Positions 4,205 to 37,511 of a stretch of DNA of 64,000 nt are shown piece after piece. Every line of letters starts with the position of its first letter. Position 1 is the stretch's first letter. Made by a program: the position numbers and the translations under genes. The notes beneath the pieces are model-generated. The model was not told the origin of the DNA and searched no databases. It saw only the letters and a program-made list of their open reading frames with translations. Source of the stretch: Hawksworthiomyces lignivorus (lineage: Eukaryota > Ascomycota > Sordariomycetes > Ophiostomatales > Ophiostomataceae); contig NTMA01000008.1 of NCBI GenBank assembly GCA_002917075.1, forward strand, positions 248,001 through 312,000, written 5' to 3'.

Positions 4205-5453
4205 TCAAGGCGCATCATCCTCATCAGCGGAGCCCTGCGGCATCTGCGTAGAGGCGATCCAGTTCTCCATCGCTGCCAGGCCGGCGGGCTTCCTCGCTGC
4301 TGCGGCGGCGCTCGCGGACGGCGCGGCGCTGCTGCTCGGGGATGCTGTTGCACCGCTGGCGCCTCCCGCCGCAGTGCGCTGCTGCTGCTGGGACGACAGC
4401 ATGGTCTGGATGCTGCGGCCGCCGCGGGGGACGCCGCGCTGCTTGACCACGAGGCAGAGGACGCGGCCGTAAATGGCGAACCCCTCGTAGATGACGTCCA
4501 CGGCGAGCTTCTTCTTCTTGCGGCCGTCGTCTGCCGTGTCCAAGTCTGCGTCTGCAGCAGTCAGCCGGGACCGCTTGGCAGGCGGCCGGTGCAGGTCGTC
4601 ATCGTCGAGCTCTTCCTCGTCGTTCTCGCTTACAAACAGGGAGTCGTCGGAGTCCTCATCGTTGTCGTTTGCGTTGCCTGCGTCGCCTGCGCCGCCGGGC
4701 CCGCCGTCAGAGTCGCTCTCATCCAGAGAGACGACCTCGTGCTGCTGCCGCCGCCGCCGCTTGGATCGGCGCGTGCCGTACGCATCGCTCTCGTCGCCGT
4801 CGCCGTCGTGCGCCTGCTGCGCCTCACGGATGTCTGGGATGTCATTCAGCAGCACAGGCTTCTCCTCGTCGCTGTCGTCGCGCAACAGGTGGGGCGGCGG
4901 GCCAGAAGCGACCAGCGGGACTTCGCCGTCCTCGTCCACCTCTACGCGCATGCCACCAGCCGCATCGACATCAGCGTCGACGTCGATGGGCGCGTCGCGC
5001 GCGGCCCCCGTCAGCCGGCTCGAGTTGGACACGAGCCGCGTCTGCGTCTTGTCACGGACTCGCCGGTGCTTGTAGAGCAGCGAGTGGCGCGTGTCCGTCT
5101 CGGTCAGGAAGAGCGAGACCTCAAAGTCCTCTGGGTGGCACGGTCAGCTGTCACGTCTCAAAAACGAGGTAAGGATGGGCTTTGAGTAACTGCAGTAGCT
5201 GCCTCTGCTGCGCACCTTCGACCAGAACGTCCCGGATGGCGCCCTTCTTCTTGGTGCCCTTCTTGCGAGACCGCTCTCGCTCCTCCATCAGCTTGGGCAG
5301 CACCAGCGGCCGCACGCTCTCTATGACGCGCGGCAGAACCGGATCGCGTGGGTTCAGCAGCCACGACTGGACCAGGGCCGGGTTGTCGACGTAGATGCGG
5401 CACTCCAGCACCGAGTACTTGGTAATGCGGAGGTAGCGGCGGAGGGGGGCCAT
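4205..5453 (-). CDS. Conserved acidic nuclear-type protein, function not recognised
   Basis: Model complement(join(4205..5130,5216..5453)), 387 aa. The 85-nt intron has a GTGCGC donor and a CTGAC branch just before CAG. Splicing joins DVLVE to EDFEVSLFL, whereas reading through reaches stops. The start ATG (5453) opens MAPLRRYLRI; a GTG lies just upstream but has no ATG. The N-terminal ~110 residues look globular and well conserved in style (a nucleic-acid or complex-binding role is only a guess). Residues from ~130 on are disordered, with Asp/Glu/Ser-rich tracts and basic clusters such as TRRSKRRRR that could act as a nuclear signal. The tail is Ala/Ser-rich with a poly-Gln stretch. It is divergent from the tRNA-synthetase gene, with ~410 bp between starts. 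I do not recognise the family by name. Confidence 0.75.
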
Positions 5454-5862
5454 CGTGCGAGTCACGGCGCTCGGTTGGCTATTTGTAGGAAATCTCTGAC
5501 CGTAGAGCCTTCGCTGCTGGCAGTGATGTGCTGTAATAATGAATGCTGGCTCTTTGCCACCTGGTGAGCGTGTGACGCTGCAGCCTTGTGAGCCACTCGT
5601 AATGTTATGTTGTGTCTAGATGCATAAATTTCGTGATGACGTTAGGCGGGTTGTCTGAAATGTGGGGTAGCAGCAACGAACGGTCCACTAAAGTGGCGGC
5701 GATTGAGTTAACTATCACAGCTCTAAAAAATTGTCGGATGCTCAGGTACTGCAGAACGTCTCTTCACAACACCACCGCATACTTCTCAACCTCGACGCCA
5801 GCTCCCCGGAAACCATTGGCACATTCGTCTCTCGCAGCCCACATTATGCGGCTGCTGGGAAC
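5454..5862. promoter_or_regulatory. Divergent spacer between the acidic-protein gene and ILE-tRNA synthetase gene
   Basis: This spacer separates two head-to-head genes and must hold both promoters. It also contains, from ATG 5738, an Arg/Ser/Thr-rich reading frame that looks like a mitochondrial presequence but is out of frame with the downstream synthetase (see that entry). Confidence 0.45.
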
Positions 5863-15619: not shown

Positions 15620-18600
15620 TTAAGAGAGCAGTGTCACAATCTGGGCATTGCCGTTCCGAACCGCCCAATCTAGCGGCGTCCGCCCAGTGTTGTCTTTCCC
15701 CTCTCTTTTAGCGCCCGCCTGGACCAGCAACTTCACCACCTCGACGTGGCCGTTTCTGGAGGCCCCATGCAGAGGCGTCTCCTCGATGGTACTTATGGCA
15801 TCTCTCTTGGCGCCTTTCTCAAGAAGCAGCTTCACGACCTCTACGCCGTTGTTCTCAGCGGCCCAGTGTAGCGGTGTTTTCCAACCAGCGTCTTCGGCAT
15901 CCCTGTTGGCGCCTTTCTCAAGAAGCAGCTTCACGACCCCTACGCCGTTGCCCTCAGCGGCCCAGTGCAGCGGTGTTCTCCGACCAGCGTCTTCGGCATC
16001 CCTGTTGGCGCCTTTTTCAAGAAGCAGCTTCACGACCTCTACGCCGTTGTTCTTAGCGGCCCAGTGTAGCGGTGTTCTCCAATCATAGTCTTTGGCCTCC
16101 GTGTTGACGCCAGCATCAACAAGCAGCTTCACAATCTCTATGTAGTTGCCTCTAGCGGCGTAGTACAGCGGCGTTCGCTCGTAGTTGGCCCCCGCCTCTT
16201 TGCCGACGCCCTCTATGTCGGCGCCTACCTGCACAAGCAGTTTCACAACCCTGGAGTGGCCGGCGAACGCGGCCCATTGTAGAGGCCTTAGCCTACTGCT
16301 GTCTGACGCCTCAATGTCGGCGCCCGCCCCCACAAGCAGCCTTACAATCTCAAAATTGCCCCTTTCGGCGGCGTAAGAAAGCGGTGTCCTCCAGTTTCCA
16401 TCTTCGGTCTCCGTGTCGGCACCGGCCTCGAAAAACAACTTTATGACCTCTATGTGGTTGTTCTTAGCGGCCCAGCACAGCGGCGCCCACCTTACGCTGT
16501 CCTTGATATCCTTGTTGGCGTCTGCTTCCACAAGTAGCTTCATGGCCCTGGCATGGCCGCTCGCGTCAGCCCGTTGAACATGGTCTTCTGCCTTCATGTT
16601 GGCGCCCGCTTCCGCAAGCAGCCTTACAAACTCAAAGTTGCCCTCTTGGACGGCACGGGACAACGGGGTCATCCCGTCCCTGTCTTCCCCTCCCCCTTTA
16701 GCGCCAGCCTCGATAAGCAGCCTCGCGACCTCCATGTGGTTATTCCAGGCGGCCCAATACAGCGGTGTCCTCCCGGCTTTGTCCTCCACCTCTTTGTCGG
16801 CACCCGCTTCGAGGAGTAGCTTCGCCACGATCAAGTAACCGTCCTGGGCTGCCTGGTGCAGGAGGTTCGCGTCCGACGTGTGGTTACGTACATCGTATTT
16901 CTCGAGAAGATTATGGAGATAGATCCACGTCTGTGTGGGAAACCGCTTCAAGAAGCTGCTTTGCTCAGTCCCTTCCGACCCGGCCCTGTCCGCATGGTAC
17001 AAAACGCCACGGATAGCATATTTGAGAAAGGGAAATGAGTTTTGGACTTTGTCTCGAAGAGCAGCTGCGTCCTCGCTCGATGCCCTTGGGAGCTCTTTCG
17101 GGAGGCGCAAATGTTCGGAGATATTCGCGTATAGGTACTTTAGACAGTATTGTTTTAGTCGTTCGTGGCTTTGCCCTTGGAACTGGTCGCCGAGATCTGG
17201 CCAAATCTTTCGAACTCCGTCGTCTTTGACAAGGAAATCCCGCACCGATTCGTGGATGAACTGGACTGCCGGCGTCTTCGACTTGGTGGTCTCGGCGAGC
17301 CCCTTGGAAGAATCTACTATGAATCTCTGAATAGCGACAAGGGTGGTAAGTTCTTGGTCCCAGGGTTCGATTTCGATGTTCATCCCGGCGTCGTTGTCCA
17401 CTCCGGCAAGAATGGCAAAGTACAGCTCTTCCGGCTTTAGGGGCCGCATGGCAAAGAGGATCCACTGGATGCACAGAACCAGCTCATCTCGGTCCCGGGT
17501 ATCTCGCGAAATGATGTCCCGGAAGAGATCGTGCAGGCCAGCGGGGATTTCTCGGAGCCGTTTGCGCAGGGCGTATATGCGGCCGCGGTCGTGTTCCTTG
17601 TTGAGGATGCCCACGACGAGGACGACCCACATGAAGACGCCGGACGCCTTGGCCTGCAGCTCCGCTCGGATCTCTTCCGCAACTCTGCTGTTTCCGATCT
17701 TGAGCTCGTTGTCGACGTAGTTGGCAATGTCCTGGTCGTGCCCCTCCTGGCCCTCCAGGACTAGCTCCAGCCCGTGGGAAATGGTGATGTAGGGATAGTG
17801 CCGGCTGGAGAAGCAGACCTGGAACTGGACGTCCGACTCGATGGTCAGCTTGCCGATGTGCTCGAAAAAGGACACCATATCGCGGATCTGGTCTTCATTG
17901 CACTCGTCTAGCGCATCAATGAAGCAGACTACGGATGACCGGCCGAGACCCTGGATGGCTTGCTCGAAAAGGTCCTTGAGTAGTTCGACGCTCCATTGCG
18001 TCTGGTCACTCTGCGACCGCGCAGTCAAAGGGAGCGAGTCGAAAATCGCTTCGAGCCCCGTGGCTCGCTGCAGCAACTGCAAGAGAAGAGACCGGTACAT
18101 TCCGGCGGTGGACTGCTCCAGCTCCTCGCCGCGCGCGTTGAAGAAAAATGACAGAATTATCTTATTCTTCATCGTTCTTTTCGCCTGATCGAAGGCGAAC
18201 TTCATCAGCGTCGATTTCCCTGTTCCTGGCTTTCCTTTGATCCAGAGGAGCCCGCGATGTTCGGCGGTCTTGTTGGGATCCAGCCACTCGAGATATTCGG
18301 CCTTTGTCTTCAGCCATTTGCAAGTCCCTGCGTGCGCCTTCTTGATGGTTGTGTACCGTGCATCGATTTGGTTAAAGCCTAGAGAGTCTCGAAACTGGTG
18401 CCTTTCTTTGTCCGTGAGGGAGGGGCTAGCGTTGACAATCTGTTGACCGGGCATGTTGGCCGTCATGCGCCGGAGGGCTACGGCAACCTTTTTGTACTCG
18501 ACGTCGTCGAGACCACTAAAACGACACATGTCCATGTGGTCCCGGCCAATATGCTCGGTGACTTCAATGGCCGGAAAGCTGAGATACGAGGAATGATCTT

Positions 18601-19519
18601 CTACAACCTGGTCACAATTCATGTCAGTTGAAATGAAAAAGGAAATTGCAAGGGCTCATAAATACCTTGTGGCCGCCCAGGGCTTTAATGCCCAGTTGCT
18701 CCTGGAAAGAGTGTATGACCCACTGCTGCTCGTGCGCCATGGGACTAAACTCGTCCCTCAGTTCCCTCAGGCGCTCAGACGAAGGGAGCAGGGCATTCAC
18801 AATCTGCTCGTTGACCCTGAAGCCAATTGTCTTGATCACCATCTCGGCGACGTGCTGGAGAAACCCGCGCGGGTCGGCGCCCCCGTGCGGCGTTCCGAAA
18901 AACATGATGCCGGCGGCAGACTCGAACACGCTTCGAAGGTGGGCCTGTCCCTGGCGGCATCCGCTAGAGCGCCGAAGCATCTCCTTGGCAATGATTCCGC
19001 CGAGGCTATGGACAACAAAGAGGAGGGGCCTCGCCGGGTCCCCACGGTGGCTGCCTTCGAGAGCGACTAAAAAGTCCCACGCGATGTCGCGGACGGTATT
19101 GTGGCTGACGGGCTGGCCAGTCCAGTGCCGGATGTGGGTGTCGTATCCATAGGTCATGACCCGCGCATTCGGGACGGTCGCCGGCAGGAGGTCGCGGGGC
19201 CAATACACCGTGGAATGGACGCTGTCCTTGCCCTGATGCGCTGCCAAGAAAGAGGTGAATCGCCGAGTCTTGTGTGGGGGCTCGGGGATCTCGTCGTTGT
19301 CCTCTTCAGGCCGTGTAGCGTTCCCTCTTTTGCAGCTCCATGTTCGCTCTGGATGTCCGGTAAATCCGTGGACAAAAACGATACTAGCTGGTCAGCTCGG
19401 AACCCGAAGACTCAGAAACGGCAGGCTGCAACTTACTCCAGTGTTGGATTATCGCAAGGCACCACGACCGTCAACCCAGTAGCGGGGACAATGTCTGCGT
19501 CTATTGATTGAGCGCTCAT
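15620..19519 (-). CDS. NLR: alpha/beta-hydrolase (SesB-like) - NACHT - ankyrin repeat protein
   Basis: Model complement(join(15620..18607,18666..19383,19437..19519)), 1262 aa. Intron 1 is 53 nt (GTAAGT..CTGACCAGCTAG) and intron 2 is 58 nt; both keep frame. Residues ~28-265 form a serine-hydrolase fold: IVFVHGFTGHPERTW, nucleophile Ser154 in VVHSLGG, and FFGTPHGG. The NACHT P-loop GKPGTGKS is at 392-399 and the Walker B region reads VVCFIDALDECNED. Thirteen ankyrin units fill residues ~850-1262. This architecture belongs to fungal STAND/NLR proteins, where the repeats sense a ligand, NACHT oligomerises and the N-terminal domain acts as effector; the role in self/non-self recognition is inferred. 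Ankyrin units 9-11 are almost identical, including at DNA level. No frame break is seen, so it looks functional. Confidence 0.93.
15806..16083 (-). repeat. Near-identical 99-nt ankyrin-coding units
   Basis: Inside the NLR gene, blocks starting with the same bases recur at 15858, 15957 and 16056, exactly 99 nt (33 codons) apart. The protein units read TPLHWAA(K/E)(N/G)NGV(E/G)VVKLLLEKGA(N/K)RDA with a few substitutions. Other ankyrin units of the gene are far more diverged, so these were copied recently. Confidence 0.9.
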
Positions 19520-22533: not shown

Positions 22534-24836
22534 TTAGCTAGCGAATTCGCCAAAATCGCCGTTGGGTAAGCCGATGCCTGCCATATCGATGTCTGGCAGT
22601 GAAAAGTCGCCGAACGGCCAGCCGCTGGACAATTGCAGCCAGACGGACTGTACGCTTATGGCTGAGACAGACGTATCTGACGTGGCGAATTTGACTGATG
22701 CTTGTAGGTTCGGCAGCGATATAATGGGTGGGTAGCCGTCGCCGGGCTGTGGGCGGAAGTCGGGATCGTCAGAATCATCATGGAGGTTGGGATTGTCCGG
22801 CTGATTAGGAATGTCTGCGTGGTCCCCACGGCGCGATCCGCCAGGCACCTCCACGGCGTCAGCGTTTTCCGGGCAGCCTCCAGCCGAATGGGCGCCGCGT
22901 TGCTCCCTCCCATTTTCGTCTGTAGTCGAGCCAGCAGCCCCTTGGTCACCCTGGATACCTTCGTCAATTTCGCCAAGATAGGCAGCCTTGTAGAGGCCCT
23001 GCATGACACGCAGCGCAACCAGCCATCGCCGGGCCGATTTCCGGTCGGAAGTCCATGATAGCACAAGCTGGTGGACGAGGTCAAAGTAATGCTTGGCTTT
23101 TTCTTTAACGCCATTCGCTCGGCAGGCCTCGTCGTCGGCGTACTGAAGCCATAGGAGCGTGTTAGAGACGATGAGCGCCGAAGATGCCACCCATATAGAC
23201 TGTAAAGCTGGGGCAGCGACAGGCGGCGTGCCTGCGCCGGTACTGCCGTCCCCTTCCAGGAAGTATTCAAGCATTGCACCCATTTCAAGAGCATTATACA
23301 CGCACGTATCGATCAGCTTGGGCTCTCGGTGAAGATACGACAGCCCAGCGCCGTCGACAAGATCGGTCATCCGCGTATATGGTGTCAGGTGTGGTAAATA
23401 GCACTGGTGGGCAACACATGAAGCGCTGCATAGCAGGAAGTGCATTGCAACAAACGCTGGTGCTTGGCCTAGCGCGCACTGTCCGTGGAAGTTGGCCATG
23501 CTCCATGTCAGGCTAGGGGGTATGGCGCGGTGCCAGGCTATAAGGGCTGTGCTGCGGGAGAAGAAGATGCCGCGTGGGTCTGTCGGTGGGTAGGCATCCT
23601 GATGGCGCCGCGACTTCAGTGCGAAGTCGGCCAGATCGCTCCAGAGGCATACTGTCTTCAAGAAATACGCGCTGAGGCCGAGGTTAGATGGCCGGCGATA
23701 TGCGGCTAGGCTGGAGAGCGTGACGCCCCTAGGAACCTCTTGGTGGACAAGACAGGCCGAGTCGGTGCCTGGAAGAGCAATCGACACATTCTCGAGGCTG
23801 ACGGTGCGGTGTTTGCCTAAAAGGAAGGCCAAGATGCGGTCAAAGAGCAGGCAGGCCCAGAAGGTGCGCCGGCGGACCTCTTGGTCTTTTAAGCTGTGCT
23901 TTTGATGAAACTCTTGGTTAAGGCGCATGATCTCGGCCATGCGCAGGGCCGTGCCGGCAAACAGCCAGTGGCGAGAGCCTGCATTCGACAGCAGCTCGGC
24001 CAGAGCAAGGACCAGGTTGGCCTGTACATGAGCTACGGTGGGCTCGTCCGCCGCAGCCTTAGCCAGCTGGCGTGCGCGGTGCAGAGCAGACCGGGCTACG
24101 TGATGGGCCGACGGGCAGCCAAAGAGAGCCTGAGCATCGGCAGCAGACACATAGCGCCCAGAGAGCGAGATGACAGCGTAGGCCAGCAAGGGGTCCGTGC
24201 GACACTTGTGTTCAAAGTCAGGGCGGTGGTCAAAGGAACTGAAGTCCACGGCAAAGTGGCGGGCAAAAAAGAGATCGAGGCAGAGGTGCAGGCCGCGCAG
24301 GTCAAGATCTGATGACCGAGATGAGGACAAGGAAAGATGAGCCGCAGGCGAGGACGGCGAGGATCCAATACTCCCAGCTATGCCCAGGAATGCAGAAGCA
24401 GGGACGGACACCCTGGGGCCGGGATCGTTGCCGCGGCCAGCGCCAGGACCGAGTCCAGGGCCGGACGCGGGACTATCTGGAGCTGGTGCCACGCGGTGAT
24501 ACACCATAAAATTGCTGCCGCTCAGCTGCTCGGTCGGATATTCTGGTACGTGGCTTCGTGGTGTTGCGGGGACCCTAGACACCTCATGCACTGCTCCAAC
24601 ACTGGAGCCACTGGATGAAGGAGCCGGGATGGCAGACGGCAGGCCGGGCGTGGGCCAAATGCACTCCAGATTCCTGGCCCGGCAATAGGTGCAACGAGGG
24701 CGCACACCATCGCACTTAGTCTTGCGTCGGCGGCTAGTTACCGATGTTAGCTGTCATTTTCCACATCTCCTTCTTCAGGAGCATTCCCTTACCATAGGCC
24801 ACAGGCCTGCGGCGTACGTGAAAACGATCGGCTCAT
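22534..24836 (-). CDS. Zn2Cys6 transcription factor (fungal_trans family)
   Basis: Model complement(join(22534..24733,24793..24836)), 747 aa. The 59-nt intron (GTAAGG..CTAACATCGGTAACTAG) splits the zinc cluster. Once spliced, all six ligands appear: C12, C15, C22, C29, C32, C39 (spacing 2-6-6-2-6), in ACGLCRRRKTKCDGVRPRC. The fungal-specific middle domain (~175-420) carries the typical HWLFAGTALRMAEIMRLNQE and EVRRRTFWACLLFDRILAFLLGK. The C-terminus is acidic with Pro/Asn/Asp-rich activation-like sequence. It lies on the same strand as, and ~1.2 kb from, the AnmK-like kinase gene, and nothing else is annotated between them. It is therefore the best candidate regulator of the amino-sugar cluster, although this is inferred from position alone. 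Confidence 0.92.
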
Positions 24837-26048
24837 TAGAGTCGGTCTAGGCGTTCGTCGGACGTCGGCTGGCGGATGTGACGCGCCTCGGCAGCTAGGC
24901 GGAGGTAATAGATACTTAAAAAGGGTTGATTGAAACTTCTTGGTGGTCAACTTTCGCAGGTCATCGGAAAAGCCGGGTCTAAAGCCGGAGTTGTCGAGTA
25001 AACGCAGTAGCAACTAGGACACTAGCCAGAAAGATTGCCAACTCACTAGGAAGGCTTACTGCTTGGTGCATATTCGGGCTAGATTATTTCAAAACCACAT
25101 GAGTACTTTGTACTTTCGCTCGATTCACAAAATCACTACCGGCACTAAACTTTTACAAACTAGGAGCCCGGCCACCAGCCGTGAGACCTGGCCGGCAATT
25201 GGTAAGTTTGGTGATACCTGCCTGGAGGGTAGCCGAAAGTATGGCAGGTGTATGCTTATCCGTGTTCGCGCGAGGTGGCCTTTGTTTCGCCTCTTTGTTT
25301 AGTCTTCCTTTTGACGTTCTTTGTCTCTAGGGTTCCGTCCCGATGTTGCTGTGACTTCCTTCACGTATGTCTTATCTAATTGATTTCGGAGTAACAAACG
25401 CACTTGCAGCAGCATGTGTCGATCGTAGCCTCATTCTCTTAGCGTGACTTGCTCGAGTTACAATGTCGGGTTTTCCGAGACGACCTCCGACGCTGGCTGA
25501 GCCTGGCCATGTTGAGAAGAAAGAGCTGGCCTAGCTAATCTACCCAATTCATAACCACCTCCAGGAGGCTACTAGTTATTACTGGGAAATGCAAAAATTA
25601 TGGAAGCACTTCCCTGTCACTGTAATTTTTACAGGCGATGCACAAGAGGCTCCATTAAATTTTAACAGCGAATTGTACAATGAACGAGGAATTGCACATT
25701 AAAAATTACGTCTAGATAGATACTAAGTACTAAAAATTAATATTTTGTATACCAGCTGCGTGCCAGACGTACGGCGGCCAACCTTCTGCGCACAGTATTA
25801 ATTAGCCTTTTTACGAAAGACCGATATTCTCAGCGGTTTTCTTTAATTCCCATATATCAGGATACTTGTCAGTTAAAATGCTTTTAAGTGAGCTCAAATA
25901 TGCTCGATTGGGTTCAACTGTAGGGAGTGGATGCGCTAGAAAGGTAGCATTTCAATTCTCTTCTCGAGGAGCCAATTCATCGGCATGGGGCAAACATGAA
26001 TTGATGCGTAATTACCATAATGTTAACATAGTGTTGACACTTATACAA
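24837..26048. other. Intergenic, AT-rich, no gene seen
   Basis: Promoter side of the Zn2Cys6 gene and 3' flank of the kinase gene. GTAATTTTT near 25,620 and AAAAATTAC near 25,700 form a short inverted pair, too short to call an element. No coding frame is supported. Confidence 0.45.
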
Positions 26049-27466
26049 TTATCTAGCCTTCGGGGCTGTCGTCTCCACCCTAATGCGCCCTACTGCTCCG
26101 ACAGACCCGCTCGCCATTGCCCTAGACATGACCTCCTGATAGTTGTCGCTGGGCGTGATCAGTCCCAGCACGGCCGGTGTCGTCGTTTCCGCGTCGGACG
26201 GCAGCGGAATTGTGCGCCCACATACACAGAGGAATCCCAGCAGTGCAAAGAGCACGGCCTCCTTGGCGCTGGGATCGAGCTGGGATGGGCTGTTGTTGCC
26301 TAGAGCCTCATCCAGCTTACCGACCTTGCTGCTCGGAAAACGTGCCTGTATGTGCCGTAGAATGTTGGGGTTGTAAGCGCCGCCGCCGCAGATGTAGATT
26401 TCGTCAATCGCCTTGCCAGGTGCCAGTCTTGGGACCACATAATCCTCATAGGCTCGAGCAATGGACTCGGCCGTGATACGCGTCAGCGTCGCCACAATGG
26501 CTGCTGGTGACCGACCGCGCTCTTTGAGCTGCTCAACGAGGCGCCGGGCAACGTCGTCCGAGAATAGTTCGCGACCTGTCGTCTTCGGGGGCGGCTGGCT
26601 GAAGTATTTTTCCTCGGTTAAGTACGTGTTGACAAACTCGGTGTCGATGTCCGCTTCGCCTTCGGCGCCCAGCACGCCGTCACGGTCGTAGTGGTGTTCA
26701 CCGTTGGTCAGGAGACGCATGGCTGCATCAATGAAAACATTTCCCGGGCCCGTGTCGAATGCAAAGTAGCTTGTTTGGCTGTCGTCTGCCAGGAGGACTG
26801 TGGCGTTGCCCATGCCGCCAATATTTTGGCTGATGCGGGTGATGCCCGGCTCGCGCAGTAGACCAGCCTCAAAAAAGCCCGACAGTGGCGCGCCCTGCCT
26901 GCCAGCAGCCACCTCAGCTGCGCGGAAGCCAGAAACCACTGTCCTGGGAGAGGAGCCAAGGAGTTAGCAGGATATTAGATGAGCAAAATAATTCAAAGTT
27001 ATCAAGATGGCCCACCTCCGCGTCTCCTGAGCAATCACCGCAGGTTCAGCCATCTGTAGCGTCGACCGCCGAGGGCCAACCGGCTGGTGCCACAAAGTCT
27101 GGCCGTGGCTGGCTACGATATCGACATTCGCAAGATCGATACCCGAGGCGGCCACGGCGCGTGCAAACTCCTCGCCTAGCGCAAAGTTGAGGTCGCACAC
27201 CTCGGCCATGGAGGTGGTGGCATCTGCCTGTTTGGGCCGGCACAGTCGCAGCACCTGCGCACGTATTTTCTGATTTACAGGCACTTCTGTGTACGTCAAC
27301 AGCTTGATATGCACATCATTGGTGCCTTCTACCTCGCTGATGAGACAGTGCGCGACATCGATGCCTTGTAGTTTCAGCTAGTTGAAGCAGCGAGAAGATA
27401 TAGGCAATATTACCTACCATCGACGCTAGTGCCGCAGTTGAGCCCAAGAATGTTGAGGAAGACCAT
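26049..27466 (-). CDS. anmK: Anhydro-N-acetylmuramic acid kinase (AnmK) homologue
   Basis: Model complement(join(26049..26943,27016..27364,27418..27466)), 430 aa, against ~370 in bacteria. In bacteria AnmK uses ATP and water to open 1,6-anhydro-MurNAc into MurNAc-6-phosphate during cell-wall recycling. The ATP-binding start GLNCGTSVDGID (8-19) is split by intron 1 and restored by splicing. DIVASHGQTLWHQP and SQNIGGMGNATVL are typical of the family, as is the late EIYICGGGAYNPNIL. The segment normally resembling DFRxxDxAxGGQGAPL reads GFRAAEVAAGRQGAPL here, so acidic positions that I remember as conserved are changed; the substrate could differ. The next gene upstream on the same strand is the MurQ homologue, ~290 bp away, which strongly links the two in one pathway. 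Confidence 0.92.
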
Positions 27467-27755
27467 TGCGATTGTGCGAGTTACTCTGTGTAAGTGGTAG
27501 TGAGAACTAGACTTGCAGGAGGGAGGGCTATCGCTGGTAATTATATCAATCACAAAATCGGCCGCCGGGCGCTAGCGGGCAGTACTGGACTAAATCTTAC
27601 TGGCGGCGACGAATTGCCCAGTGCGAGCAGAGCCACCACTCCAGTTCTCTATTGCAGCCAACTGTGTATAGGTGTATAGTACAAATGAATTATATGTTCA
27701 GCCACTCATGTCTATTATCTATTCTATCTTTTCAATGCAACAACGGATTAAACAA

Positions 27756-28836
27756 TTATGTTTTACTATTTAATCGTATTTCCTTCAGTGCCTGTCGTAA
27801 TGAGCCATCCGCAGCCTTCAACTTAGCCCTCCCTTCGTCTGGCGTGCAACCTAGGGCGGCTACTAAAATACTCAGCTTAACCTGGCCGTCACAGCGCTCT
27901 AGCACGTCGTCCAACACCTCTTCCTGCTGCACATCCAGCGCCGGCTGTGGCGGTACGGCCGCGCGTACTACTCGTCGTGCCCTGTCGACGAGCTTGGCGT
28001 TGGACATCCGTAAATCAACCATCAGATTGCCATAGGTCTTTCCTAGGCGAATCTGTGATCCGGTTGAGATCATGTTGAGGATCTAAGAGAGTTAGCCAGC
28101 AGATCTCATGAATATATACAGTGTCCGTTCTAACTTTCTACTCACCAGTTTTGTTGCCGTGCCAGCCTTGAGGCGTGTGCTGCCGGTGACAACCTCCGGC
28201 CCCGTCACGCACTCGATCAGGACGTCACAGTTTCTGTCTAGTGCGCTTGGCTTGACACACGCTAGCCCGATCGTGGCGGCGCCCACCGACTGCGCGTGCT
28301 TCAGACCGCCGATGACGTACGGCGTGCGGCCCGACGAGGCAACGCCGACCAAGACGTCGGCGGCCCCGAGCGGCGGCGACAGCGCAGCCAGGTCAGCGGC
28401 GCCATTCTCCTCCGAGTCTTCAGCACCTTCTACGGCGTTGCGGATTGCGTAGTCGCCACCGGCAATGATGCCAATAAACTGACCGGGCGGTGCTGAGAAA
28501 GTCGGAGGAATCTCAGAGGCATCGAGGATGCCCAGCCGACCGCTCGTACCGGCACCAGTGTAGACTACTCGGCCGCCAGCCCTCAGCCGCGGCACGATCA
28601 CATCGATGGCGGCAGCGACCTCCGGAAGGACTGTCTTCACGGCCGGCGGGACAGTGGCATCCTCGTCGTTGATTATTTCTGCAGCGGAAGATTAGCAAAG
28701 CCGTTTACTGAGCTATTCGGGCAGGGCGAAAGGGCCAAAAAATACGGCATAGCTCTAGCGTTGAAACAGCATCAATGTTTGCCGTGTGCGTGTTCTTCTG
28801 CTCCGTCTGCAGCGACGCAAGGTCGAGGACGGTCAT
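27756..28836 (-). CDS. murQ: N-acetylmuramic acid-6-phosphate etherase (MurQ) homologue
   Basis: Model complement(join(27756..28082,28146..28678,28746..28836)), 316 aa, near the bacterial ~300. It would cleave the D-lactyl ether of MurNAc-6-phosphate to give GlcNAc-6-phosphate and D-lactate. The SIS fold shows YTGAGTSGRLGILDASEIPPTF with catalytic-type Glu86, and NAVEGAEDSEENG (from ~111) holding the second conserved Glu. GVASSGRTPYVIGGL, GPEVVTGSTRLKAGTATK and IRLGKTYGNLMVDL follow. Introns are 67 and 63 nt; a GCTAATC branch precedes exon 2. ATG 28836 is preferred because family members start just before the LxxLxTE segment; an in-frame ATG at 28965 would add 43 residues. All catalytic-region motifs are intact. 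It is divergent from an MFS permease gene. Confidence 0.95.
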
Positions 28837-29787
28837 GGTGCTGTATGGACCACGGGTATCGATATCAGTGTGCTGGTGTGTATGCACGTCTTTCGCCTTT
28901 GCTCGGGGTTCTATATGCCACAGTCCGAAGGTAAATGGGATCATTAATGGCACGTGAACCACCATCCCCTGCTGTATTGAAGATAGTACTGATCGCCCAT
29001 CATATTAATGTAGGTGCATCGTATCTGCATACCGGTCGGTCCTTGCTCTGATTGGCAGCCACTGTGCTCATACTGTCCTTATTGTTTTTATTGTATAGTA
29101 TCAAACCAAATTTTTTGGAGGAACCTTTCGTTCTTCTTTTCTTTTTTGTCTCATCCTTCTCATCTGACCAACGGCGTATTGAACCCTTTGTCCGACGACC
29201 CGCCTGCTTCTCCGAGAATCAGTCCGACGCTAGCGGAGAACACTCTCCATTGTTGTGCTCTTATCCTTTCGCCTCCATTTTTACACCTATCTGGCGCCGT
29301 GCATATTTTATGGAAACGGGATATCCGACGCCTGGAAAAATCCTTGCAATCTCTATCTCGCTTTCCAGGCTGTTCAGAACTGCCTCTTCACGTCGTACTT
29401 TCGAGCAGAAACCCCAGTCTTCTGCTGAAGAGGCTGGAGCATTACGTACAAACTTACGGGGAAGCCTTGCAGATGGTCCTTATCTTGGAATCGGAAAGCG
29501 AACTTTATGCACTGATGCTGGCATCTCTGGGGTAACTGACTGTGGAATCAAAGCACTGGTTCCTGGGGTCATGAAGGCCGCTGCGACTCCACGCCTCCCT
29601 CTGGAGATAAGACGAAAATTGTGCCAGGCTCAATTCCTTTTAAAGACCCATCGCTGCACCCTGCATGGCAGCTTGCCATTCAACAGCTCAAACTTCAAAG
29701 CTATTGTTTCTGACCCCCTCCCTATTCGCTTGGGAAGCAAGACCAGACAAGAACTTTTCAGCCTCCTTAATTGGAACCCTGAACACC
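28837..29787. promoter_or_regulatory. Shared divergent promoter region of the etherase and permease genes
   Basis: About 950 bp separate the etherase ATG (minus) from the permease ATG (plus), with no other supported gene. A 285-codon plus frame (29052-29909) overlaps the permease start in another frame and has no domain. The region contains CGGTCGG (29033-29039), an inverted CCAAT (ATTGG, 29051) and the CCG-N7-CGG listed separately, all suitable for a Zn2Cys6 regulator or CCAAT complex. Confidence 0.5.
29224..29236. promoter_or_regulatory. Candidate Zn2Cys6 binding site CCG-N7-CGG
   Basis: Inverted CCG/CGG triplets 7 bp apart, in the spacer between the etherase and permease genes. Zn2Cys6 dimers commonly bind such everted or inverted triplets; the spacing preference of the neighbouring factor is unknown, and chance occurrence in 950 bp is possible. 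Confidence 0.25.
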
Positions 29788-31566
29788 ATGGGTGTACTGC
29801 ACAACCTTCGTGTCGCCGCTTGGGGCGAGGCCCCGGAGACTCCCGAGGAAAGAAAGGTATGTGCCCGCTCTTCGCTCTGAGAGGCCATCCGATTCTGCTG
29901 ACGACGTGAAAGCTCCTGCGGAAGATTGACGCCGCCATCCTGACGTACTGTTGTGTGGCCTTTTTCTTCAACTACCTCGGTATGTATTTTTTGTTGACAG
30001 GGTGCGCCTCATTGATCGTATTAGATTATTTGCTGATCTTCAGACCGTGCCGTTCTCGCCAATGCCTACGTCTCGGGCATGAAAGAAGATGCCAACATCA
30101 CTGGTAATCAGTACAACTTGTTAGTTACGATTCTGTCCGTCGGCTGTATGTTATTCCTCCTGCCTCCGTTCTTTCCCTTGCATATTTATTTCTATACTTA
30201 ACACAACCCCCAGACATTCTTGGTCAGGCTCCCCACGGAATCGTCATCCAGGTCGTCCCTCCCCGCATCTGGTTCCCTCTGATGACTCTAGTCTGGGCTT
30301 GCCTCACCATGGTCTGCGCGGCCTGTAATAGCTTTTCCAGTCTAGCAGCTGTGCGTTTCTTCCAAGGCTTTATTGAGGCGTCCACCTATAGTGGCACGCA
30401 GTACGTCATCGGTAGTTGGTACAAGGGCTCTGAGGCCGGCAAGCGTATCGGTCTCTTCCAAGCATCGGGTATGGTCGGCACCATGTTTGCTGGCTTCCTC
30501 ATGTCGGCCATCTGGTCTACGATGGACGGCAAAGCCGGTTTGGCCGGTTGGAGATGGGTACGTGTATTCGCAAAACATGCTATTTTTTTATTTTTTTTTT
30601 TGGTGCTACAGGGTTTAACCCGCCCTAGTCCTTCATAATCGACGGTCTCATCACTGTCCCTGTGGCCATTTTCGGCTTCATCTTCTTTCCTGATCTTCCT
30701 GAGACAACCAAGGCCTTCTACCTCAAACCGCACGAGCGCGAGCTGGCCCTGTCGCGTCTACCAGAAAAGGACCCAAATGGCCACAAGATTGGCTTTTCTA
30801 TCGTCCGACGCGTCCTGGGTACGGCCAACTTCTGGATCTTCTGCATTTTTTGGATGATTGGTGGTGCTCTCGAGGCCTACTCGACACAGACTTGTATGGT
30901 GCTTTGGATGAAGGCCTCGGGCGAGTTCACCGTCACCCAGAACAACAACTATCCGCAAGGAATTGCCGCGATTGGTGAGTAATTTTTTCGACCTCCGAAT
31001 TCATATTATGACTCTGGCGGGAATCTAACCGCACAGGAATTGTCGTCACACTGGCAACGTCTGTGGCCATTGACGCGACTGGCGTGCACGCCCCCTACGG
31101 CCTCTTCGCCTGCGCTGTTCAAATCGTGTCTTCCGCTGTCCTTCTCTGCTGGAACACGGTCGGCTCAAGCGCTAAAATGAGCGCCTTCTATCTAGCCGGC
31201 ACAGCCTACTTGATCCAGCCCGTCGTTTTCGTCTGGGCCAACCGTGTGCTTACGCGGAGCGGCGACGATGCTGCGCGTGCTGTTACTTTGTACTCGATGA
31301 ACGGTGCGTCATCGGTGCTGTATGCGTTCTGGGGCATCGCGCTGTACCCGGCCACGGATGCGAAAACGGGTTTCCGCAAAGGCGCTATTTCTATGATTGT
31401 TGTGGCAGTTGCGCTGGCGTTCTGGATTGGTGTTGTATGGTGGCAGGACTGGCGCACGGAGCGTGCACAGCAGCAGGCCATTGCAGCCGTGGATGGCAAG
31501 CTGTCCAAGGACGAGGAGGCCGCGGGCCCAGAGGCCGTGGAAGACCTGCCGACCAAAAAGGAGTAG
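29788..31566 (+). CDS. MFS permease, anion:cation symporter (Dal5/Tna1/Liz1-like) family
   Basis: Model join(29788..29856,29913..29979,30044..30145,30214..30557,30629..30974,31037..31566), 485 aa. Five introns of 56-71 nt have consensus ends and keep frame. About 12 membrane segments are visible. The first is followed by NYLDRAVLANAYVSGMKEDANITGNQYNLL and ILGQAPHGI. In the middle come FFQGFIEASTYSGTQYVIGSWY and IGLFQASGMVGTMFAGFL, all typical of the fungal allantoate/nicotinate/pantothenate permease group, which carry carboxylates with protons. Its head-to-head position with the etherase suggests it imports an acidic amino sugar such as MurNAc or anhydro-MurNAc. That substrate is inferred; allantoate, a vitamin or another carboxylate are alternatives. 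Confidence 0.92.
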
Positions 31567-32607
31567 ACTCTTTCCGTATAAAGTTTCACACGAGCGAAGC
31601 GAGGAGTCCAGCAAGGACTGCCACCCTTACATTCCATCATCTAATATTATAAAGTCCAAGGAAATACATACAGTTCCAATAATCGATGTGTTTCATTTGT
31701 TGTCACTTGACTATATTTGTTCAGTCAGACCTATACTATTGCCTCGGGGGTCCATTGCGCTCCTTGACTGCAGAGCCCTCACATCACCAAAGCGATAGAA
31801 GTCGCAAAAACTTTGATTTACTGGCCGTATAGAATTTAAAACCTTATCGACCTTTTCCATTTCCTTAGAATTATAGTGATGCTGCGTTTAGTGCTGTATG
31901 TGGTGCTGAGCTGAAAATGAAAAGTCATAGTTAGCTGATTTTGGAGCAACTGATGCTGATAAGTCAATAAACTTTGCTGGTGCTGCTTCTCTGCTTCCTT
32001 TTTTTAGGCCCCTTGCTGAAAAAACTGCTCGGATCTTGCCTAGCGTTCTAACAGCAGTAGCTGGATATAAAATACCTTGCCTTTCATTGCTCCTCGCTGA
32101 ATTCCTTTAGTAGAGCTCAAGTATCTTACATCAGCTTTTTTTTTTTTTTTCTTTTTTTCTTTTTCTTTTTTTTTTTCGTTTAGAAGTTGCTGAATTCATG
32201 TTCATGAGATGAGAAGTCCTAGAATAGATTTACGACCTCCTGTTGATATTACAAGTATTTCCCAATGGCGGCTCTGAGGGCTACTGGATATCAATCGGAT
32301 CACGCTAACGGCTCTTTTCACTGGCTGCTTAGAGGCTACTGATGGCAAAACTGGTGGTTATGTACTCTTACACTGTACCTAAGAGTAACTTCTACCACGC
32401 TGCAAAAGCCGAAAAAAAAAAGGTGACACACGCCGCCATATTTTGCGGCCCCAACAGCGTATCTCGCTCGTTTTCTGTTATATACAGGCGCTAATAGACA
32501 AAGATATCGTGTCACTTCTAATTTTCGACGCGTTCACCCACTTTCTCTGGGCTCACCAAAATCAACCACCAAACGACAAATCGCCATTTCCTTCATTATG
32601 GTCAAAA
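31567..32607. other. Intergenic, no gene seen
   Basis: 3' flank of the permease followed by AT-rich sequence with a long T/C-rich tract near 32,140-32,176. No coding frame is supported. Confidence 0.5.
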
Positions 32608-33108
32608 ATGGCCAAACCACAGTACAGTCCTCATAAAAGGGCTAGAATTGCATCTGCAAAAATAGCTGGTTATTCTCATGCATATATCGCGCTTACGGAG
32701 GGCGTAGAGAAGCACTCAATATTTGGCATTGCCAAGCGTTATTCGGAGCAGAACTCAGGACAAAACAAACCACGTTCTGGCCGCCCTTCAGCATTAACTG
32801 AACGGCATATGCGCCAAATAGACCGATTAATCGGCCAGAAGCCTTCTATTTCAGCCCGTGAAATAGTGGCTGAATTAAGTCTTCCATGCAGTCCAGCCAC
32901 GGTAACTCGCGCGCTTAAGAAAAAGAGTATCCAACATCACAAAGCCCAAATTAAGTGAGCATGCTGCGAAAAGAGGTTGATGTTTGCGAGACTTTGTCCA
33001 TAAACCTAGACGTTTTTGGAAGCGCAAAGGTGGGTTGATGAATCCACGGGCGTCGGTGGTGATGGCAGCGGGACGAGCTGGGCGCGTTCTCAATGTACGC
33101 GATTCACT
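32608..33108 (+). mobile_element. Tc1/mariner-type transposase remnant (N-terminal part)
   Basis: From ATG 32608, 116 codons (stop at 32956-32958) encode two helix-turn-helix units of a Tc1-family DNA-binding domain: SPHKRARIASAKIAGYSHAYIA, then the linker RSGRPSALTERHMRQIDRLI, then SISAREIVAELSLPCSPATVTRALKK. Such domains bind the terminal repeats. After the stop, a shifted frame (about 32980-33108) still reads RRFWKRKGGLMNP and resembles a decayed catalytic segment. The DDE domain is otherwise gone. I could not find convincing terminal inverted repeats, so the limits given are only those of recognisable coding remains. Confidence 0.75.
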
Positions 33109-33636: not shown

Positions 33637-35819
33637 TCAGCTCATAATTGTCATTAGCATCTCGCCCAGTACCTGAACATCACGATCGCCCCGGTGCACG
33701 GGAGGCAAAACATATTGACCGGCGCCGTCTTTGTTCAGCCCCATCAGCTCCACGACCGCCATCTGGGCCGAGCGTGCCGAATACTCCATGGTGAATGTGA
33801 CGTCTCGCTCGATCTCGACAAACTGACCCAGCAGGCCCAGGTTCTTGCTCCCCGGCGGCACCACGGCGGGGCGGTCGCCGGCGGCGCGCGGCAGGAAGGG
33901 GCTGCCGATGAAGGGCATGAAGCAGGGAATGGTGGTGACGGGCGGCCGGTCGGTGGAGGGCACCTGTAGCTGCATGTCACCATCGATGCTGCTGACGGTG
34001 CTGGCGGCACTGGCGGCGCTGCTGCTGGAGCTGCCCAAGACGTCAGGGCCGAGGTCCAGGTAGGACACCAGCTCTGCGTAGATCTCCGCGCCCGTGCACG
34101 ACAGCATGGGCTTGCGCACAAAGAGGCCCTCCTGGTCCGGGTACAGGCCGTAGCCCCACAGCACCCGGACGTCGTCGGGCTGATCAGTGAAGTACGGCTG
34201 CTGCGGGACGGTAAGCGAGAGCATCCAGGGGCTGTCGCGGAAGGTGATGAGCGGGCCGTGGCTGTTCGTGTAGCTCTGGGGATGAGGCGGGGACAGGGGC
34301 TGGCCAGGATGGCCATCGGGCGTGGCAGTGGTGAACGAAGCCGGGGTAGTGGACCCGCCGCCACCCTCTTTGCTAGTCAGCTCATCGTCATCGTCGAACC
34401 CCGCCCACGCGGCCAGATAATCGAACAGGCGCACAGCGTCAGCGCCGGCGAGCGTGATGGTGAACGAAAGCCACGATGACTTGGCGACGCGGCTGTAAAA
34501 GGCCTGCGGGCGGCCGAATGCGGCGTAGTGGCGCGGGTTAGTGGCTGGGTCGGCCAGTCCGGCCCAAAAGCGCCACACGGGACCCGGGTCGCGCAGGATG
34601 GCGTCCTGCGTGGGCATCGGCGGGGGTGGACGGTCGTTGGCTCCAAAGCGGACACCGGACGTCAGCGAGCCGAGCGTGATGAACACAATGTCGTGGTCAC
34701 CGAGGGACAGTGTCGCGTCGGTAAATTCCCCAGCAGCGTCTTGTCTGCGGCGGCGTGTGCAGAGCGCGGAGACCCGTAGCTCGTCCTCTGGTGCAATCAC
34801 GACCTCTGTTACCTGTGTTTCTACACGGGGAGACAAGAAATCTTAGCCTCGGTTTCTTACAAATACAAGGTTTAAAAAGGGAATGGAGAATTGTAAAGAA
34901 AGGCAGTCCCCTCCTTGGATATTTGCCTACCATATCGAAAGTCGACACCAACGCTCTTCAAGTGCTGCTCCATTGGCAAGATGATGCACTCGTAGTCGTT
35001 CAGCGGCGCGTGGTCGATGCCCTCGAGCGTGCTAATGTGCGAAAACTCGTGGAGAAACCGCACCAAATACCGCCGGAACTCGACGGCGCTGTGCCAGGGC
35101 TGGAAGCCGTACAGGCTGGCCCAGACGTCCCAGAACTTGGACTCGAAAAAGTCCGGCTTGAAGAGCGTCTGGATCTCCCGGCCGTCGTCGACGTTCTCTT
35201 CTGCCTCCAAGATGAGGCCTAGCAGGCTCATGCGCTGCTCTGGCAGCAGACCCATGCTGCTGATGTTGACGATCTCAGGGCCGTCGGGGCCACTGGCCAC
35301 AAGTCGGGCGGGCAGAGCCTTGACCGAATGGCGGGATGTCCTGGAGCCAAGCTTTTGTTTCTTGTGGTCATCCGCGTGTGCTCCAGCGTCGTGCTCGCTA
35401 TCAGTCTGGCTGTGTTCGCATTCCGCCGGCCGCTTCACCTCCTCGAACTCATCCGACTCGGGAGACTCTCCCGCGCCGCCCGTGCCTGCTTCTGTCGTGT
35501 CGATGGCCTCAGCCGCGATGCCCCGCACGTCGTCCAGCACGGACTGCCCAGGATGCCGCGCGGACGGTACCTTGGCCAGGGTGGCGTACAAGCAATGGTA
35601 CGAGAAATTCAGCTTCCGCGCCGCCAAGAGGACGTAGCCCTTGTTTCCATACGGCTGGCTGCCACCCATGGACCCGCCCGGCTGAGGGGCTGCCTCGATG
35701 ATATGGATCTGGTGAGCAGGCACGCCAGCATCGTGGTAGAGGTGTACGGCGGCAGTAAGCGATGCAATACCGCCGCCGACAAGATAAGCGTGGGTGAGTT
35801 CCGGTGAACGCTCTGGCAT
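33637..35819 (-). CDS. ohyA: Oleate hydratase (myosin-cross-reactive antigen family)
   Basis: Model complement(join(33637..34820,34931..35819)), 690 aa; bacterial members are ~590-650. The enzyme uses FAD to add water to the cis-9 double bond of oleate, forming 10-hydroxystearate. The FAD-binding start AYLVGGGIASLTAAVHL (12-28) and the family's GGSMGG and NISSMGLLPEQRMSLLGLILEAEE are visible. So are SKFWDVWASLYGFQPWHSAVEFRRYLVRFLHE and, near the end, ERDVTFTMEYSARSAQMAVVELMGL. The 110-nt intron joins VDFRY to ETQVTEV. An acidic, Lys/His-containing insert (~135-175) absent from what I know of bacterial enzymes sits in the N-terminal half. ATG 35819 is the first ATG before the FAD motif. No signal peptide is seen. 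The family is much commoner in bacteria than in fungi. Confidence 0.9.
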
Positions 35820-37511
35820 GGCGGGGAAACAGCAAATGAGCCCCCCTTCGCGCAAGATCCAGTGCACGACGTGTCAGATATCAAGACGAGCTAAGAGGCC
35901 AAGAGGCTGCGAGACTGCAGATGCTCGGCTCAAATAGGTGAAGATCTGCTCTGGCACACGAGCCGATTGGGATCGGGACGAGAGGCGATCTGATTTAGAA
36001 ATGATCGCCACGCAACAATGAAGCAAAATAATGAAGCAAAACGATGATATCGTCAATAAAGTTTGTTTCTTAACCTCTCGTCATTATCAGGACACTATCC
36101 CTGTCGAGCCAAACCCCACTTCACAGCGCAGCTGGCTCTTAAAAGCTTGCACGACAGTCTCCCTTGCTTTGAGAATTTTTGCGCGTAGCACAAAAAAAAA
36201 AGCAACAGAAGCCGATTTTGCCCAATTCGGCATTTGTGATATCGTCCATTTCCGTTGGTCCTTTCCCCTGTGCATTTCGTAACATTCAGCGTTGACTTGG
36301 CGATGGACGGGACCTTGCGCAATGGAGCGGCCTGCAAATCGTACGATTCTGCCGAGTGCGCGCTTTTTTCTTCTCATGACCCTCTTTCTTTTTATGATAA
36401 CCAAAAAAAGACGAGGCCATTCTCACATTCTCACCTAAAAAAAAATTAGAAAAGCGCAACTTAGCACAATCGTTATCGCCCTCCCGCGAAACGCGCATTT
36501 ATGGCTTCCCTGCATTCCTGAGCGGTCCTTAGCGCTGCATGGCATGACCGGTGACTTGCCCACACATGCAAGGGCCCGTGTTTGCCAACTTGCGGTTCGT
36601 TTCGTAGATCCGGCAAACATCGGGAAGGATTTAAATGTCATGAAAATATTGTATCAAGAAAGAGAAGCACCAGACGTTGCGTGGGCTTTGTCTCGCTATC
36701 ACGTCTCATCAGGGTCCTGGTCGATCCACTGAGAGAGAGACTCTAAGAAACCCCTATACTCCTATTTCGACTTGTGTCTTTCATTTTCGCAAGGGCAGCC
36801 GGATGCTGCTCTCGGCTGCCAACAGCTGACTTCTCACAAAAGAAAATCAAACACACACAGGACGCAGCCTTGCCCCTGATATATATACAGAAGAGAGCTG
36901 CAAGTCACGGGCTGCTCCATATGCTTGTCAGACACACTAAGGGCTGCTTTCTAATATGCAACCTCTGCACTTCTGTGCTCTGCCCCCCGGAAGGACGAAA
37001 CCGCGGATGTGAACTACCAGCTGAGATGCGGAGAAATTATTTTTTTTGTCGCCCTCAACGGCGCTTTGTCAGCCTCACTGCGGTTAAACTTCCCCAAACT
37101 CCCCCAACTTGGCCCATCATTGCGGGGTCCGTTAATCGTTTTTCCGCCATTGGCTTCGACTTTTGGCCGCTGCCATTCGCCGACTTCGGGTGACGTCGTC
37201 TTCTTCCCCTGCCATTCGTCTGCTCAAGTACGTCTTTTTGCCTGTAGCTCCAGCTTGCGTAGAGTACTAGCAAGAGTCGCAACACTTAGTGCCGTCGGTG
37301 CCGTTCCGGGGCGTGCCAGTTTGATGGGGGGGGGGGGGAAAGTCGCAATTGACAGACGGCTTGCAGTTGGGTATTTAGATCCCCATCTCTTGGAGTCTTT
37401 TCTTTCCGGAGCACCTGCCTGTCCCAAGGCTCCAACAACCACATGCGTTATATATCGCTATTTCGAGCGGCTGCGACTTTACGACGACCACTATCCTCGC
37501 ATATCCGCATC
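35820..37511. other. Divergent spacer, no gene seen
   Basis: About 1.7 kb between the oleate hydratase start (minus) and the hydroxyacid dehydrogenase start (plus). It contains an A run near 36,190, a poly-G run near 37,330 and only short frames. The last 70 bp can encode an N-terminal extension of the dehydrogenase. Confidence 0.5.

Follow-up and report, generated by a model that had tools for sequence, protein, structure and literature searches.

Muramic acid is treated as a marker of bacteria and its breakdown as bacterial business, and fungi, to our knowledge, make no N-acetylmuramic acid (MurNAc). What, then, might be the role of adjacent genes for an AnmK-family sugar kinase and a MurQ protein in the ascomycete Hawksworthiomyces lignivorus? 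The pair lies in a 64,000-nucleotide stretch of its genome (contig NTMA01000008.1 of assembly GCA_002917075.1, positions 248,001 to 312,000), which we call the window. An initial annotation of this stretch had grouped the two genes with a Zn2Cys6 regulator and an anion permease into a candidate cluster for peptidoglycan-sugar salvage. Our analysis suggests that salvage of 1,6-anhydro-MurNAc (anhydro-MurNAc) or MurNAc from bacterial peptidoglycan is the best explanation of the cluster, and one that we consider probable.

The cluster, its MurQ and its linkage in other fungi

All four genes claimed for the cluster are present, intact and spliced, and together they fill positions 22534-31566 of the window in full:

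22534-24836, minus strand: Zn2Cys6 transcription factor, 747 aa; exons 24793-24836 and 22534-24733; Pfam Zn_clus and Fungal_trans
26049-27466, minus strand: AnmK-family sugar kinase (of the clade named AnmK2 below), 430 aa; exons 27418-27466, 27016-27364 and 26049-26943; PF03702, 8.8e-70
27756-28836, minus strand: MurQ, 316 aa; exons 28746-28836, 28146-28678 and 27756-28082; TIGR00274, 357.9 bits
29788-31566, plus strand: permease of the major facilitator superfamily (MFS), Liz1-like, organic-anion type, 485 aa; six exons, 29788-29856, 29913-29979, 30044-30145, 30214-30557, 30629-30974 and 31037-31566; PF07690, 7.5e-33

Splice models were drawn by hand at GT...AG borders, giving 14 exons and 10 introns, and the joined exons of each gene read in frame to one stop. 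The end of MurQ and the start codon of the kinase gene are 289 bp apart on the same strand, the permease gene is transcribed divergently from MurQ, and the Zn2Cys6 gene sits 1.2 kb beyond the kinase. The 44-base first exon of the Zn2Cys6 gene (24793-24836) completes the six-cysteine motif of its product, which matches PF00172 and PF04082.

The assignment of MurQ proved well founded. The protein exceeds the cut-off of the curated equivalog model TIGR00274 (357.9 versus 302 bits). Its Pfam matches are GKRP SIS models, and animal GCKR is a distant relative; it scores 268 bits to bacterial MurQ versus at most 74 bits to GCKR. Residues E86 and E117, which we take to be the equivalents of the catalytic glutamates E83 and E114 of E. 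coli MurQ, are invariant in all eight aligned sequences. As a family assignment, the predicted MurNAc-6-phosphate etherase is strong. Elsewhere in the genome, a weak further match to the MurQ model (1.6e-4) was found on another contig (C134:169263-169493), within a 654-aa frame that perhaps encodes a SIS-domain aminotransferase.

The permease belongs to MFS_1. Its top NCBIfam match is the D-galactonate transporter model TIGR00893 (8.3e-31; 107.3 bits, far under the cut-off of 395), and of the three solved sequences that it matches, a plant protein accounts for one and a D-galactonate transporter for the other two. Several relatives carry the names Liz1-like or pantothenate transporter, a group that we take to consist of organic-anion permeases. 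Among the matches listed, probable orthologues stand apart: 26 rows show 56-77% identity and the remainder at most 53%, save one partial row at 77%.

Linkage in other fungi was read from the best 120 matches listed for each protein search (MurQ, kinase and permease), using equal-sized contigs and locus tags; each listed row is a cluster of proteins, so most rows are uninformative on linkage. Kinase, MurQ and permease genes share a contig in at least five other fungal assemblies, namely Fusarium oligoseptatum (with a MurQ model shortened to 261 aa), F. lateritium, Dactylonectria macrodidyma, Cephalotrichum gorgonifer and the basidiomycete Naematelia encephala. Kinase and MurQ occur together in at least eight (these five plus F. 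nematophilum, Clonostachys rosea and Penicillium riverlandense), and kinase and permease in at least nine (the same five plus Malbranchea cinnamomea, Clonostachys rhizophaga, Mariannaea and one metagenome contig, on which the permease is just 46% identical). Co-occurrence on a megabase contig is by itself weak evidence of linkage; consecutive tags are strong evidence. Such tags join all three genes in F. oligoseptatum (CEP52_004235/4236/4237) and F. lateritium (ACHAPJ_006654/6655/6656), kinase and MurQ in F. nematophilum (ACJ41O_013622 and 013621), and kinase and permease in Malbranchea (VTO42DRAFT_5866 and 5867). F. decemcellulare and Paramyrothecium have MurQ and kinase in one predicted protein, in the gene order of the window; these models may be annotation errors, yet they require adjacency. 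Because the three genes are linked in at least five other fungi, with consecutive tags in two, their grouping is more than chance. A synteny search had been the check proposed by the initial annotation, and the linkage it anticipated for AnmK, MurQ and the MFS permease is indeed found in several other fungi.

The second MurQ and amino-sugar catabolism

A second full MurQ gene, MurQ2, lies on another contig (C107:270500-280400) in the order NagB, NagA, MurQ2, BadF-type kinase and UNC-93-like MFS protein. MurQ2 also passes the TIGR00274 cut-off (353.2 bits) and is 67% identical to the window MurQ (209/314). Its neighbours score above their own cut-offs, NagA with 246.6 bits for nagA (cut-off 225.65) and NagB with 388.4 bits for nagB (cut-off 236.9), the latter on a sequence trimmed of 61 uncertain C-terminal residues. 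Because MurQ2 sits with NagA and NagB, a predicted route from MurNAc-6-phosphate to fructose-6-phosphate is encoded in the genome, and the association of MurQ with amino-sugar catabolism does not depend on the window cluster in this fungus. NagA and NagB, the enzymes that would act downstream in the proposed salvage route, have their genes here, beside the second MurQ.

Both introns of the window MurQ recur in MurQ2 at the same place and in the same phase, and MurQ2 has three extra. This coincidence points to a probable duplication within fungi rather than two transfers as the source of the two copies.

Fungal clusters for catabolism of N-acetylglucosamine (GlcNAc), as in Trichoderma and Candida, likewise have NagA and NagB next to a kinase gene. 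The C107 cluster differs from them in the MurQ within it, and we know of no MurQ in the fungal GlcNAc clusters described. In pairing MurQ with a BadF-type kinase it resembles the MurK-MurQ route for free MurNAc, which is present in Clostridium. MurK is also genetically linked to MurQ in Tannerella, according to the accessible text of one report (PMC10465942). Among solved proteins the C107 kinase best matches a MurNAc/GlcNAc kinase, and human NAGK is matched as well; the similarity is remote (44 bits), and the protein could be a plain GlcNAc kinase. Human NAGK phosphorylated MurNAc in vitro at levels similar to GlcNAc, as stated in the available part of its description (PMC9477735). A relative of the C107 kinase occurs in 25 of 80 bacterial murQ loci (up to 4 kb on each side), and a Purpureocillium MurQ gene model (P0038) continues into what appears by eye to be the start of such a kinase, a short tail without a Pfam match.

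The kinase: AnmK or levoglucosan kinase

The window kinase matches PF03702 (8.8e-70) over profile positions 3-366 of 367, a full-length domain. It had been named AnmK, and as far as the family goes the name holds, but its nearest solved relative is a fungal levoglucosan kinase (LGK), that of Lipomyces, with 45% identity, a rival that the initial annotation overlooked. The product of levoglucosan kinase is glucose-6-phosphate, for which we know of no use by MurQ. Caution is due in reading function from the label 'AnmK', because a Rhodotorula toruloides protein so labelled gave levoglucosan kinase activity in yeast, as described in the accessible portion of that study (PMC9476349).

Three AnmK-family loci are present in the genome, in the window and on contigs C104 and C66. 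The C104 copy falls inside the LGK clade (13 rows, support 100/100), is 69% identical to the Lipomyces enzyme and, as its placement predicts, is a levoglucosan kinase by descent. At this locus (L012, 695-9020) the kinase gene is flanked by a Zn2Cys6 gene and, on the opposite side at a distance of about 2 kb, by a Sugar_tr transporter gene, a layout that would parallel the window cluster for another anhydro sugar. The window kinase falls outside the LGK clade, in another fungal clade named AnmK2 here (21 rows, support 92/84, or 100/99 without Saitoella). Because the genome keeps a true LGK copy near a Sugar_tr transporter, the window kinase would be free for another role. The kinase trees include a hand-picked 32 of the best 120 listed kinase matches; the second tree omits the very long C66 row. 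That third gene (about 4294-5556, a single exon of 420 aa in our own reading) is extremely divergent, with a branch of 5.5, and no MurQ-model match was found on its contig.

LGK, suggested by the best solved match, is an unlikely identity for the window kinase in view of the tree, the neighbouring genes and the LGK copy elsewhere in the genome. With the Lipomyces starkeyi enzyme it shares the PF03702 family, 45% identity and membership of sister fungal clades; it differs in its clade, in that the genome has its own LGK copy elsewhere, in its neighbours and in the residues of one loop. At 33 columns of an alignment that counts one metagenome kinase row (P0151) as fungal by similarity, AnmK2 and LGK are each conserved yet differ; bacterial kinases share the AnmK2 residue at 11 of these and the LGK residue at 4, and match neither at 18. 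Four of the 11 fall in this loop, where H109, P111, T118 and Q120 of the window kinase are as in bacterial kinases (H, T and Q in 8/8, P in 7/8) and LGK has L, S, A and T. Over the 60 columns invariant in bacterial kinases, both fungal clades keep 42, AnmK2 alone 5, LGK alone 5 and neither 8 (90% threshold). The residues would favour an AnmK-like substrate solely via this HxP / TxQ loop, which we infer to be on the substrate side.

Proposed peptidoglycan-sugar salvage, its rivals and its origin

Bacterial recycling of peptidoglycan sugars runs, in E. coli, in the order AnmK, MurQ, NagA and NagB. In the proposed fungal pathway the MFS permease, judging from its linkage and family, would import the acidic sugar 1,6-anhydro-MurNAc or MurNAc, and the AnmK-family kinase, as its family, clade and linkage suggest, would open the anhydro ring and phosphorylate the product to MurNAc-6-phosphate. 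MurQ would then remove D-lactate to leave GlcNAc-6-phosphate, and NagA and NagB would convert this to fructose-6-phosphate by deacetylation and deamination; for these three enzymes the family assignments are strong. The MurK/NAGK-type kinase of C107 might bring free MurNAc into this pathway. D-lactate is perhaps oxidised by an FAD-oxidase_C enzyme, of which the genome has seven matches (five strong, two weak) that are not specific. The fungal set shares its enzyme families and their logical order with bacterial recycling. It differs in its fungal host, in an MFS protein of another family instead of AmpG/MurP, in a candidate Zn2Cys6 regulator, and in having NagA and NagB at a different locus with a second MurQ.

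The window also contains a D-isomer 2-hydroxyacid dehydrogenase gene (PF02826; 37723-38715), 6 kb from the permease, whose product could in principle act on D-lactate.

The same enzymes could act on muramic acid compounds and serve for disposal or for signal reading of muropeptides, for instance from endohyphal or competing bacteria. We regard this as unlikely: it would fit both a genome in which seven lytic families have no match and the defence role proposed for murQ of ants in the accessible part of one paper (PMC13320244), but the linked permease and the NagA and NagB genes beside the second MurQ resemble carbon and nitrogen catabolism. A cluster for levoglucosan or another neutral anhydro sugar, with a second LGK and a MurQ that is adjacent by chance or has another job, is improbable. 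The Lipomyces enzymes are the nearest solved structures (45% identity) and the R. toruloides 'AnmK' had LGK activity in yeast, in the available text (PMC9476349); against this stand a separate LGK copy with a sugar transporter near it and the position of the window kinase outside the LGK clade (100/100). Glucose-6-phosphate would be of no known use to MurQ, the pairing of kinase and MurQ recurs in ascomycetes and basidiomycetes, and the closest matches of the permease are organic-anion carriers.

It is very unlikely that MurQ is a SIS-family sugar-phosphate sensor or isomerase like animal GCKR and not an etherase. The GKRP SIS matches in Pfam and the distant relationship to GCKR would agree with such a role, but the protein is a single-length MurQ above the TIGR00274 cut-off, is far closer to bacterial MurQ than to GCKR (268 versus at most 74 bits), keeps both presumed catalytic glutamates and adjoins a kinase of the family that makes the MurQ substrate. 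An artefact, through bacterial contamination or decayed genes, has next to no probability: all four gene models have introns, close fungal orthologues exist, and the contig is at least 942 kb long (assembly 43.7 Mb). Contamination by bacteria is not an explanation, because this contig runs among fungal genes. The observation from which we started gains strength from the linkage seen in other fungi, from MurQ2 and from the LGK copy on C104.

Several results weigh against salvage of MurNAc compounds. The best solved-structure match of the window kinase is fungal LGK with 344 bits versus 138 for P. aeruginosa AnmK, and its scores stay under the cut-offs of all 14 NCBIfam equivalog models for AnmK (best model 348.4 versus 387), a model set made for proteins of bacteria and archaea. 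Its clade shows no general excess of AnmK-like residues, with 5 versus 5 over the 60 invariant columns. Mariannaea has MurQ on a different contig from kinase and permease, the latter two are separated in Coniochaeta, and each of the three Purpureocillium lilacinum rows lies on a contig of its own, perhaps from different assemblies. Two yeasts and Saitoella have the kinase without a MurQ among the best 120 matches listed. Bacterial kinases were sampled through proximity to murQ, plus one PDB chain; closer kinases could exist elsewhere, and the sampling favours a position beside murQ. Finally, no match in the genome was found for any of seven lytic families (GH25, NamZ, phage-type lysozyme, Amidase_2, NlpC/P60, SLT transglycosylase and M23 peptidase), in a search whose built-in controls that scored were all prokaryotic and which other families and very divergent or exon-split enzymes could escape.

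Because these seven families have no match, free fragments are a likelier substrate than whole peptidoglycan, and the fungus is probably a scavenger of fragments. Bacteria shed anhydro-muropeptides, so a scavenger would have no need of lysozyme. The idea of the initial annotation that the fungus eats bacterial peptidoglycan sugars fits the data; as a diet of whole peptidoglycan it is less likely. Other fungi do possess lytic enzymes, since Umbelopsis is reported to have lysozymes and a lytic transglycosylase family in the accessible part of one study (PMC7928374). Aspergillus fumigatus secretes a peptidoglycan endopeptidase, in a paper whose available text does not mention MurNAc as food (PMC12332128).

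The Zn2Cys6 protein may switch the cluster genes on, a role as cluster regulator that is speculative. Two promoter regions of the cluster contain a shared word:

28837-29787: divergent promoter region of MurQ and the MFS permease, 951 bp; CGCTAGCGG at 29228 (weak)
27467-27755: promoter region of the kinase, 289 bp; CGCTAGCGG at 27570 (weak)

We rejected CGCTAGCGG as a cluster site: a third copy stands outside the cluster at 38083, and 5 of 100 shuffles of the window reach three copies. The pattern CGG-N5-CCG was also rejected; it occurs at 35 places in the window, above all 100 shuffles, and hence is not cluster-specific. Across three promoter regions, CGG-N0..15-CCG pairs are not enriched, with 23%, 13% and 91% of 300 shuffles equal to or exceeding the observed numbers. 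Among CGG/CCG pairs, CGG-N5-CCG and CGCTAGCGG, no convincing shared promoter site was found in the cluster promoters.

Just downstream of the cluster is a piece of a Tc1-like transposase (32389-32958; weak, under Pfam cut-offs). An MCRA-family gene of at least two exons (33637-35873), presumably a fatty-acid hydratase from the name of the family, adjoins the cluster. At 15620-19391 the window contains NLR-like pieces with a NACHT-type ATPase (PF24883) and many ankyrin repeats (Ank), adjoining a hydrolase-like stretch without a Pfam match.

As to origin, 4 of the 80 bacterial murQ loci, all from Chloroflexota, have an AnmK-family kinase directly upstream of murQ, 40-44% identical to that of the window, a further likeness to bacterial recycling. 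In one of them, Longilinea (L022, 2672-4705), AnmK and MurQ form a single 685-aa open frame, which may be either a true fusion in this bacterium or an error of sequencing. Three further loci of the 80, all from Planctomycetota, have a more distant AnmK downstream of murQ on the other strand. The two fungal clades of the kinase tree jointly neighbour the Chloroflexota kinases. A quick MurQ tree of 121 rows (a hand-picked 39 of the best 120 listed matches and all 80 bacterial loci; weak root) places 23 fungal rows, the two H. lignivorus copies and five further metagenome rows in one set, with 99 in the Shimodaira-Hasegawa-like approximate likelihood ratio test (SH-aLRT); the 23 are 21 named rows and two metagenome rows (P0030 and P0032) counted as fungal by similarity. 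Within this set the two copies split: MurQ2 goes with Niveomyces (87% identity) and Sporothrix, as would suit a host near the Ophiostomatales, and the subclade of the window MurQ includes Fusarium and Clonostachys, among others. The fork that unites fungi with some Chloroflexota has a support of 29, and we do not claim it.

Transfer of a ready-made anmK-murQ pair would be the natural reading, with a donor that the MurQ tree, at a support of 29, does not settle. Tentatively, we put forward a joint reading that is possible but may well prove wrong. Early fungi, before or soon after the split of ascomycetes and basidiomycetes, may have acquired a bacterial anmK-murQ pair, perhaps of Chloroflexota type. 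One kinase descendant would have become LGK, while the other kept MurQ and gained the anion permease. In living fungi such as this one, MurNAc-6-phosphate would then be reached by two entries, from anhydro-MurNAc through AnmK and from MurNAc through a MurK-like kinase; either entry would have a MurQ to itself, and bacterial walls would serve as food. Our reserve stems from the sampling of kinases near murQ and from the low support of the MurQ fork.

No published fungal MurNAc pathway was found in the literature searched, which covered open-licence papers only and makes this a weak negative. A 2026 paper on Camponotini ants, in its accessible text, describes transfer of murQ as not reported before and as potentially confined to these ants (PMC13320244). 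The ants resemble the fungi as eukaryotes with a murQ of bacterial origin; they differ in that the available part of the same paper mentions no kinase or permease partner (PMC13320244). In Monascus, murQ is listed among chitin-pathway genes in the portion of the genome paper at hand (PMC9159588), and another source, as far as its accessible text goes, has murQ as bacterial only (PMC12168751).

A MurNAc pathway across several fungal lineages would change how the turnover of dead bacteria is read, and would simply explain fungal genes that are labelled merely 'AnmK' and 'MurQ'. It also bears on where levoglucosan kinase came from. If the early acquisition outlined above is true, fungi would act as a sink for muramic acid of bacterial origin in the soil.

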